A stretch of 33,125 bases of DNA from Gammaproteobacteria bacterium (GTDB taxonomy: Bacteria > Pseudomonadota > Gammaproteobacteria > Xanthomonadales > Rhodanobacteraceae): assembly GCA_021325195.1 (NCBI GenBank), contig JAJPHQ010000113.1:1-33125 (forward strand), read 5' to 3'. Within the stretch, counting starts at the first letter, position 1. Every line of letters starts with the position of its first letter. Under the pieces are notes generated by a model. The model was not told the origin of the DNA. It made no database searches and worked only from the letters and a program-made list of their open reading frames with translations. A program made the translations under genes and the position numbers. Shown here in pieces: positions 22,007-24,125 of this stretch.

Positions 22007-23215
22007 ATGCAGATTGCCGATTACCATGCCTATCCCGATGCACACGGCCGCTTCGGTCCCTACGGGGGCACCTTCGTCGCCGAGACCCTGATTGCGCCGC
22101 TGGAGGAACTCACCGCCGCCTACACGCGCCTGCGCGACGATCCGGCGTTCCAGCGAGAATTCACCGACGATCTGAAGCACTACGTCGGCCGTCCTTCGCC
22201 GATCTATCACGCCAGGCGTCTGTCGCAACAGGTCGGCGGGGCACAGATCCTGCTGAAGCGCGAGGACCTGAACCACACCGGCGCGCACAAGATCAACAAC
22301 ACGGTCGGGCAGGCGCTGGTGGCGCGCGCGATGGGCAAGCGCCGGATCATCGCCGAAGCCGGCGCAGGCCAGCACGGCGTGGCGACCGCCACGGTGTGTG
22401 CGCGTTTCGGCATGAAATGCGTGGTGTACATGGGCGCGGTGGACATCGAGCGCCAGAAGATCAACGTGTACCGGATGAAACTGCTGGGCGCCGAAGTGGT
22501 GCCGGTGAGGTCCGGTTCGCAGACGCTCAAGGACGCGCTGAACGAGGCGCTGCGCGACTGGGTGACCAACGTCGCCGACACCTTCTACATCATCGGCACG
22601 GTGGCAGGGCCGCATCCGTATCCGATGATGGTGCGCGATTTCAACGCCGTGGCGGGGCGCGAGGCGCGCGCGCAGATGCTGGAGGAATACGGCCGCCTGC
22701 CGGACGTGCTCACGGCCTGCGTGGGCGGCGGTTCCAACGCGATCGGCCTGTTCCACGCCTTCCTCAATGATCGCGATGTGCGAATCGTCGGCGCGGAAGC
22801 GGCGGGGGAGGGTCTGGCCACGGGCCGGCACGCAGCCTCGCTTGCGGCAGGCCGCCCCGGCGTGCTGCACGGCAACCGCACGTACGTTCTCTGCGATGAC
22901 GACGGCCAGATCACCGAAACGCATTCGGTCTCGGCGGGTCTCGACTATCCCGGCGTCGGCCCCGAGCACGCGTTCCTGAAGGACACCGGCCGTGCCGAGT
23001 ATGTGGGCGTCACCGATGACGAAGCCCTCGCGGCGTTTCACCTGCTCTGCGAAACCGAGGGCATCCTCGCCGCACTGGAATCCAGTCACGCGGTGGCACA
23101 GGCGATCAAGCTGGCGCGCGACTATCCGAAAGACGCGCTGATCCTGTGCAATCTTTCCGGCCGCGGCGACAAGGATGTGCATACGATTTCGAAACGGGAA
23201 GGGATGGAGCTGTGA
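22007..23215 (+). CDS. trpB: TrpB, tryptophan synthase beta chain
   Basis: TrpB condenses indole with serine to give tryptophan, using PLP, in an alpha2-beta2 complex with TrpA. The 402-residue product has the [14 protein letters not shown] start, the PLP Schiff-base Lys95 in HTGAHKINN, the AGAGQHG loop and the phosphate-binding GGGSNAIG. The length and the single-domain form show it is the regular TrpB1, not the TrpB2 variant. Only a weak purine-rich sequence lies before the ATG. Its stop codon (23213-23215) lies inside the first unit of a heptamer repeat that separates it from trpA by 97 bases; in most operons these genes touch or overlap. Confidence 0.98.
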
Positions 23216-23304
23216 GACGCGAGACGTCCGCTCGCTGTGCTCGCTCAGACGTGAGATGGGAAGCACGCTACGGCTGTACGTCTCACGTCTCACGTCTCAC
23301 GTCT
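23214..23304. repeat. Heptamer repeat with inverted copies between trpB and trpA
   Basis: ACGTCTC occurs three times in tandem (23278-23298), followed by a partial unit to 23304. The reverse complement GAGACGT occurs at 23221-23227, after a variant GAGACGC at 23214-23220. AGACGTGAGA (23247-23256) is complementary to TCTCACGTCT, which itself occurs in three registers (23281, 23288, 23295). Several alternative hairpins are therefore possible. The left end overlaps the trpB stop, and the right end stops eight bases before the trpA ATG, where no Shine-Dalgarno is visible. It is not a CRISPR, since units are adjacent without spacers. Confidence 0.85.
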
Positions 23305-23312
23305 AACTCGCC

Positions 23313-24125
23313 ATGAACCGAATCGATGTTTGTTTCAGCAAACTGGCCGCAAGCAAAAGCGCCGCGCTGATTCCCTTCATCACCGCCGGCGACCCGCTGC
23401 CGGAGGCGACGGTTGCGGTGATGCACGCGCTGGTCGGGGCGGGCGCCGACCTGATCGAACTGGGGATGCCGTTCTCCGATCCGATGGCGGACGGTCCCGT
23501 GATCCAGCACGCCGACGAACGCGCGTTGCGCCGTCATGTCGGCATCGCCGACATCCTCGGCTGGGTGCGCACGTTCCGCGAGCGCGACGCCGGAACGCCG
23601 GTCGTGCTGATGGGGTATCTGAACCCGATCGCGATCCACGGCATCGAGCGCTTCGCGGGCGAAGCGCGTGAAGCCGGCGTCGATGGCGTGCTGGTGGTGG
23701 ATTGTCCGATCGAGGAGGATGCGTTCCTGCAGCCGTTGCGGGACGCCGGCCTCGAACGCATCCTGCTGGTTGCGCCGACCACTTCGGAAGCACGTCTGGC
23801 GCGCGCGATCGATGCCGCGGAAGGCTACCTCTACTACGTGTCGTTCGCGGGCATCACCGGCGCGTTGAAACTGTCGGTACCCGATGTCGCGGCACGCGTC
23901 GCGAACCTGCGGGCGCGCGCCGGTGTGCCGGTCGCGGTCGGTTTTGGCATCAAGGACGGCGCCAGCGCGAAAGCGATCGCCGGATTCTGCGATGCGGTGG
24001 TGATCGGCTCGGCGCTGGTGGAGCGCCTCGCGGATGCCGCCGACGTCCATGCCGCATGCGAAAGGGCGCAGACCTTCCTGGCGCCGATCCGCAAGGCGCT
24101 GGACGAAGGCAGGTCCTTGCGCTGA
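23313..24125 (+). CDS. trpA: TrpA, tryptophan synthase alpha chain
   Basis: TrpA cleaves indole-3-glycerol phosphate to indole and glyceraldehyde-3-phosphate and passes indole to TrpB through a tunnel. The 270-residue TIM-barrel product carries both catalytic acids, Glu49 in LIELGMPFSDP and Asp60 in MADGP, at the same numbers as E. coli. FITAGDP near residue 22 and the VGFGIKDG phosphate loop are also present. No ribosome-binding site is visible before the ATG at 23313; the upstream sequence is the heptamer repeat. Expression may thus depend on the folding of the repeat or on ribosomes arriving from trpB. Confidence 0.97.
   Translation: MNRIDVCFSKLAASKSAALIPFITAGDPLPEATVAVMHALVGAGADLIELGMPFSDPMADGPVIQHADERALRRHVGIADILGWVRTFRERDAGTPVVLMGYLNPIAIHGIERFAGEAREAGVDGVLVVDCPIEEDAFLQPLRDAGLERILLVAPTTSEARLARAIDAAEGYLYYVSFAGITGALKLSVPDVAARVANLRARAGVPVAVGFGIKDGASAKAIAGFCDAVVIGSALVERLADAADVHAACERAQTFLAPIRKALDEGRSLR

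Follow-up and report, generated by a model that had tools for sequence, protein, structure and literature searches.

A putative palindromic element of facing tandem heptamer arrays between trpB and trpA in a member of the Rhodanobacteraceae

The window considered here is the whole stretch of DNA that was analysed, 33,125 nucleotides in length, and within it two genes whose names are backed by Pfam, trpB (PALP) and trpA (Trp_syntA), are separated by a short inverted repeat. The parts of this junction are as follows.

22007–23215, plus strand: trpB, an open reading frame; its TGA stop (23213–23215) lies inside the first repeat unit, GTGAGAC
23209–23227, plus strand: outer left arm, inverted repeats I1–I3, with an exact repeat core at 23214–23227; forms the predicted hairpin base and overlaps the trpB stop
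23228–23277, plus strand: spacer between the outer arm and the array, read from the letters
23247–23256, plus strand: inner (second, weaker) left arm AGACGTGAGA, inverted repeat I8, complementary to the array in three registers and hardly paired in the predicted ensemble
23278–23304, plus strand: right arm, three copies of ACGTCTC followed by ACGTCT, reading GTGAGAC on the other strand
23313–24125, plus strand: trpA, an open reading frame with its ATG 8 nt past the array

The ACGTCTC copies start at 23278, 23285 and 23292, with the partial copy ACGTCT running to 23304, and the inverted copies GAGACGCGAGACGT at 23214–23227 overlap the trpB stop; the units are GTGAGAC and GCGAGAC. An earlier note on this DNA described three heptamers and a partial one with inverted copies upstream, covering the trpB stop and ending eight nucleotides before trpA, and the letters agree with it at each point, as they do with its remarks that the repeat separates the two genes and that one left arm could pair with three registers of the right arm, the inner arm being complementary to TCTCACGTCT at 23281, 23288 and 23295. 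The arrangement also exceeds what shuffled sequence yields: three exact tandem 7-mers are present at a single place in the window and in none of 30 dinucleotide-shuffled windows, and the 14-mer ACGTCTCACGTCTC, with up to two mismatches, has 4 matches in the window against 0.23 expected and a maximum of 1 in 100 shuffles. Within its own genome (2.92 Mb in 118 contigs) the exact tandem 14-mer is found only at trpB–trpA, and the plasmid records searched gave no match. The sole Rfam match, mir-2058, reached 25.1 bits where the gathering score is 90 and was discarded.

One long helix formed by the outer left arm and the array dominates the predicted RNA ensemble, with 16.9 expected pairs to the array for the outer arm and 0.02 for the inner arm, and forbidding the outer arm raises the minimum free energy from −64.3 to −42.0 kcal/mol, a cost of 22 kcal/mol. 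The minimum free energy of the gap is −41.7 kcal/mol against −32.2 (sd 3.3) kcal/mol for shuffles, 12 of 1000 of which are as low, and the fold of 23200–23330 has a z of −2.1 with 4 of 200 shuffles as low, so that the predicted fold of the junction beats chance to a moderate degree only. The folding check proposed in the earlier note predicts one long hairpin, in which the inner-arm alternative is barely populated and a balance between the two left arms is not supported; given this dominance of the outer arm, a two-state switch at trpB–trpA appears unlikely. No terminator-like or promoter-like sites were found between 23100 and 23450 (the scan being limited to sigma-70-type promoters), no T-run was found downstream of the right arm in the letters, and the repeat does not have the GC hairpin followed by a T-run of an intrinsic terminator.

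TrpA is present in 225 of the 233 genomes of the family; the junction figures cover the 150 places listed, of which 144 are readable, the other six being trpA loci without a readable trpB end. The end of the gap was taken as the first aligned TrpA residue at 120 short loci and from the distance of the TrpA motif at 30 long loci, and six junctions whose measured gap fell between −1 and +5 are overlaps when read by their letters. Among these listed places the two genes overlap by 4 nt at 101 of the 144 readable junctions (97 ATGA and 4 GTGA), which are empty sites at the species level, and gaps longer than 12 nt are found at the other 43. Gaps above 80 nt number 34, of which 23 have an arm score of at least 12 (22 short-unit arrays, and an inverted repeat of another kind in G033), and 12 lack clear short-unit arms, among them those in G007, G009, G010, G029, G039, G144, G193 and G232. 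About eight different units occur among the 22 armed short-unit gaps; the units at trpB–trpA, assigned by eye, are these.

GTGAGAC: the genome described here (G000)
GGGACC: G001
ACACGGATCA, a 10-mer: G003
GGTCAAA: G138
GGGACTC: G139
GGGAATC: G099
GGGATTC: G094, G101, G149, G196 and G200, with G198 under the threshold; gap lengths of this type include a predicted N-terminal extension of TrpA
AGTGAGA-like: four g6 genomes, G159, G161, G169, G185, G195 and G207, with a double copy in G142, and G186 and G188 just under the threshold

Three members of the genus to which this genome belongs have three different units at this junction, and the units of two g18 species also differ. The comparison of sister species that the earlier note suggested finds no conservation of the element at this junction within the genus, and most junctions read overlap. 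ATGA stands on both sides of only 2 of the 23 armed gaps, too rarely for a target-site duplication to count as proof of insertion. By eye, the GGGATTC-type elements of G094 (L096) and G101 (L088) contain an ATG in the trpA frame, and the right arm would there encode a new TrpA N-terminus.

Within the junctions the two arms match each other while the unit varies from species to species. Compared with the reverse-complemented right half of the same gap, the left half scores a mean of 16.0, and compared with right halves from other species 8.6; the own-half mean is reached by none of 10000 permutations, the arms not having been preselected. A permutation within genomes is left out of the evidence, being biased through the picking of arms by their own match. 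With eight representatives, one per unit family and picked by us for clear arms, every left half matches the right half of its own gap best, and the identity alone of the 40320 permutations reaches the diagonal. Inside one unit family, arms from different loci match as well as arms from the same locus, and one element of G003 (L388:192–290, contig C12) combines a GGGACC left arm with a GGGAAAC-type right arm, mixing two unit families; arm identity thus appears to be mainly a property of the unit family.

The arms also have a fixed polarity. Of the 23 armed trpBA gaps, 21 have a purine-rich left arm; the exceptions are G033, with its inverted repeat other than a short-unit array, and G142, in our reading because the halves of its double element are split across two copies. 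Among the places listed, GGGACC neighbours within 300 bp comprise 14 convergent, 0 divergent and 1 direct, all 14 inverted pairs facing inward. GTGAGAC arrays of three units, among the 117 listed from many phyla, have a convergent partner within 250 nt in 21 cases, a divergent one in 1 and none in 95 (binomial p 1.1e-5), so that 21 of 22 inverted pairs among these matches face inward. Convergent GGGAATC pairs are present in 8 of the 233 family genomes and divergent ones in none, the arms of the convergent search being slightly broader than those of the divergent one. This inward polarity exceeds what a hairpin alone demands.

Relatives of the array are dispersed. The degenerate pattern GKGARWC in three tandem copies gives 8 matches at 6 places in the genome described here, against 0 for the reversed control, with neighbouring genes named from Pfam.

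The trpB–trpA junction
3′ of a RecG gene
5′ of a TsaD-family (TsaB-like) gene
A gap between atpD- and atpC-like genes
A gap between atpH- and atpA-like genes
5′ of a gene without a Pfam family

A facing partner of the same kind is present at three of these six places (trpBA and both atp gaps) and at none of five GGGACC places in this genome. The atp elements, on contig C57, are facing GGGAGAC-type elements (L021:1487–1582 in the atpD–atpC-like gap and L022:1472–1521 in the atpH–atpA-like gap), and the genes beside them encode subunits of one complex, too. The earlier note held that identical arrays scattered through unrelated gaps, with no conservation at trpBA, would indicate a neutral dispersed repeat, and this holds in part: in this genome identical ACGTCTC pairs occur only at trpBA, and it is their degenerate relatives that are scattered. 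Such dispersal, and the absence of the element from this junction in most relatives read of the genus and family, favour a dispersed insertion over a conserved regulator.

Across the family, the GKGARWC pattern is found in 73 of 233 genomes and 18 of 26 genera, with the reversed control also matched in 11 of 233, strongly in G219 (53+51), G213, G035 and G032; the control matches in these four perhaps represent another tandem unit family. The exact 14-mer occurs in one further family genome, at two places in G033, at one of which facing arrays separate frames that by eye are response-regulator-like and histidine-kinase-like. Of the 233 family genomes, 29 contain AGAAGTGAGAGAAAGC (control 0). 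Six of 17 genomes tested have GGGACCR pairs, all six belonging to the genus of the genome described here (47 in G003, 36 in G001, 29 in G012, 17 in G007, 6 in G000 and 1 in G014), with up to 8 reversed-control matches per genome (in G007), so that the low counts mean little; ACACGGAT pairs number 14 in G003, 10 in G007 and 2 in G014 (control 0). GGTCAAA pairs number 3 in G138 and 2 in G139 (control 0). On these sequence counts, several unit families coexist. A scan of 84,980 species for three tandem GTGAGAC units gave at least 117 stretches in many phyla, those listed not being a random sample, compared with about 0.1 that we estimate for a random 21-mer in 257 Gb; by record title the matches listed come from Bacteroidetes, Marinimicrobia, Chloroflexi, Gemmatimonadetes, Streptomyces and further groups, and most are single arrays. 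At family loci, 28 of 136 arrays have a motif resembling AAAAGC, AAGAGC or AGAAGC within 25 nt on their inside and 3 have one on their outside; some of these loci are related to each other, and one or more of the arrays are spurious, consisting of masked bases. A core motif common to the phyla was not found among the GTGAGAC stretches listed, AAAAGC lying within 25 nt downstream of 4 of 117 and upstream of 0 of 117.

Some relatives lie inside coding sequence. The GGGACC pairs of sister genomes sit in open frames, a statement to be read with the tendency of GC-rich DNA to leave several frames open, and Pfam names the proteins at six such copies.

L384, G001: lipoyl – E3-binding – acyltransferase protein, the arms lying in its two linkers
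L381, G001: MeaB
L386, G001: NAD synthase
L389, G003: Mur ligase
L393, G003: LpxB
L399, G012: DNA polymerase A exonuclease domain

Facing GGGACC arrays bracket the E3-binding domain in L384 (195–399, G001; Pfam) and, by eye, in L391 (174–395, G003). In alignments to PDB chains the repeat-coded segments are unaligned, namely query residues 52–85 of LpxB, between chain positions 243 and 254, and query residues 51–73 of the NAD synthetase, between chain positions 456 and 461. As 7 and 3 have no common factor, an array of 7-nt units contains one and the same set of seven codons whichever frame is read; GGGACCG is stop-free on both strands, and GTGAGAC has TGA in all three sense frames. The genome described here has a two-unit GGGACC array in an apparent coding frame (L397, G000:C58:7135).

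The closest system found in the literature searched is that of the GGGAATC repeats of Xanthomonas, of which two genomes have 186 and 183, forming 70 and 75 convergent pairs; among aligned genes these repeats favour positions near stops and starts (Rehm et al. 2015, PMC4692102). The trpB–trpA copy shares with them tandem heptamers near the stop and start of aligned genes, often in convergent pairs and dispersed in the genome. It differs in having no GGGAATC among its tandem units, which are GTGAGAC and GCGAGAC, and in lacking a set of four quadruplex-forming G-tracts, no such pattern being present in 23200–23312, and its family has many units in one architecture and at one junction; neither trpBA nor in-frame insertion as such is a subject of the available text of PMC4692102. 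By these sequence features the repeat is best described as a quadruplex-incapable variant of the Xanthomonas heptamer repeats. Rickettsia palindromic elements, about 150 bp in length, lie in frame within unrelated conserved genes (PMC10969869), a habit matched by the GGGACC relatives in sister genomes, but the unit of the copy studied here has stops in all sense frames; compared by description only, tandem short-unit arms are not part of the account in the available text. MITEs, REP and ERIC-type sequences are similar as dispersed, non-coding inverted repeats in transcribed gene gaps, and the terminal inverted repeats (I1–I3) and species-level empty sites are those expected of a MITE, but here the arms are tandem short units whose sequence varies by locus and species. 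The TAACTGA repeats of Beggiatoaceae are also intergenic heptamers near start codons with few Shine-Dalgarno sites and a patchy distribution across phyla, but are described as almost solely direct arrays of one fixed unit (PMC4679880), in contrast to the facing pairs and many units seen here. Among the matches listed from the open-access literature searched (subscription papers and preprints being outside this scope), none describes unit-diverse facing heptamer elements, the trpBA case or quadruplex-incapable variants.

We consider it likely that a dispersed palindromic DNA element, its two arms being tandem arrays of a short (usually 7-nt) unit that face each other, was inserted here and split an overlapping trpB and trpA, as suggested by the arms in 22 of the 34 long gaps, the overlaps at most readable junctions, the related arrays at 6 places in this genome and in 73 of 233 family genomes, the matching of arms inside each gap, the facing pairs in the two atp gaps, the inward polarity, the in-frame copies in conserved genes of sister genomes and the dominance of outer arm and array in the predicted hairpin. 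The earlier note also allowed for a mobile or slippage-prone repeat having arrived at this site, which agrees with the overlap in most relatives read and with the dispersed relatives of the repeat. Against insertion stand the Xanthomonas repeats, 83% of which hold their place between two species, with no mobile-element link seen and with stable surroundings stressed (PMC4692102), as well as the scarcity of facing partners among the GKGARWC and GGGACC places of this genome, the mixed units of L388, the matching of arms across loci, the 12 long gaps without clear arms, the control matches in 11 genomes and a fold just moderately above shuffles. There is a small but appreciable chance that the arrays grew in place after the overlap was lost otherwise, through slippage and hairpin-templated copying without any insertion. 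Array length and unit do vary strongly among species, slippage of bacterial heptamers has already been proposed (in the discussion of PMC4692102), and some gaps are armless or one-armed (G012, G007); however, the unit families are dispersed in their carrier genomes, whereas arrays grown in place need not share units with distant loci, slippage alone would not predict strict inward polarity, and in-frame copies lie inside intact conserved genes.

The remaining alternatives concern what the element does. That it is a selected RNA switch or rheostat, in which left arms compete for the right array and repeat number tunes the TrpA:TrpB ratio, is improbable: both left arms are complementary to the array, the flanking gene products act 1:1, and MacGregor suggested translational roles for heptamers upstream of start codons, but the pairing is almost entirely one-sided in prediction (0.02 against 16.9 pairs, and 22 kcal/mol to ban the outer arm), the element is unconserved in the genus with a unit that changes from species to species, and related arrays occur in unrelated gene gaps. 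That the junction is an intrinsic terminator or contains an internal promoter for trpA is very improbable, since the stable hairpin between two genes is accompanied by neither a terminator-like site, a T-run nor a promoter-like site of the sigma-70 type scanned for. A DNA or RNA G-quadruplex, as suggested for the GGGAATC repeats, whose placement and architecture are the same, is scarcely credible here: the gap contains two isolated GGG runs only, no more than 5 of the 23 armed trpBA gaps have the capacity to form one, and in control oligonucleotides of PMC4692102 a G-to-T change at the second G (GTGAGAC as compared to GGGAGAC) abolished the CD change.

On the preferred reading of an insertion, rather than growth in place, the trp mRNA would fold into a single long hairpin whose base includes the trpB stop, the trpA start lying shortly after the right arm. 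The products of the two genes act 1:1. Termination–reinitiation through the overlap would be lost, along with the use of a Shine-Dalgarno sequence that for that route would lie inside trpB. The 20 nt before trpA contain a Shine-Dalgarno-like match of at most 3 nt, compared to 6 nt at 80 of 95 overlapping junctions and fewer than 4 nt at none of the 95, in support of the earlier note's suggestion that the trpA Shine-Dalgarno was removed. In E. coli gene pairs reinitiation was lowered by 80–90% or abolished at a distance of +38 nt, and the same paper (PMC10666635) also refers to work in which coupling spanned 73 nt and more. Since reinitiation falls with distance and the Shine-Dalgarno match is weak, the element should either uncouple trpA or hold stop and start together at the hairpin base, so that TrpA would be translated less efficiently, or remain partly coupled since the hairpin keeps the stop near the start. 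The element may be a tolerated insertion, and a selected regulatory role is not required.

These observations bear on the role and spread of bacterial heptamer repeats, which the one detailed study identified here connects with G-quadruplexes; across the differently spelled elements at trpB–trpA the shared property is the complementarity and polarity of the arms, not G-tracts. We speculate, while regarding it as unlikely, that they belong to a widespread unnamed class of bacterial elements in which the unit is free across loci, species and phyla while complementarity, inward polarity and a mostly 7-nt period are kept, and for which addition of repeats at staggered nicks would fit better than transposition or slippage: the fixed polarity, and pairs bracketing coding sequence such as the E3-binding domain, would fit telomere-like addition of repeats to the 3′ ends of two staggered nicks, one on each strand. 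The family also provides a natural experiment, in that the genes for a 1:1 complex overlap in most relatives read and are split by different hairpins in others, which would allow a direct test of a hairpin as a substitute for gene overlap in translational coupling.
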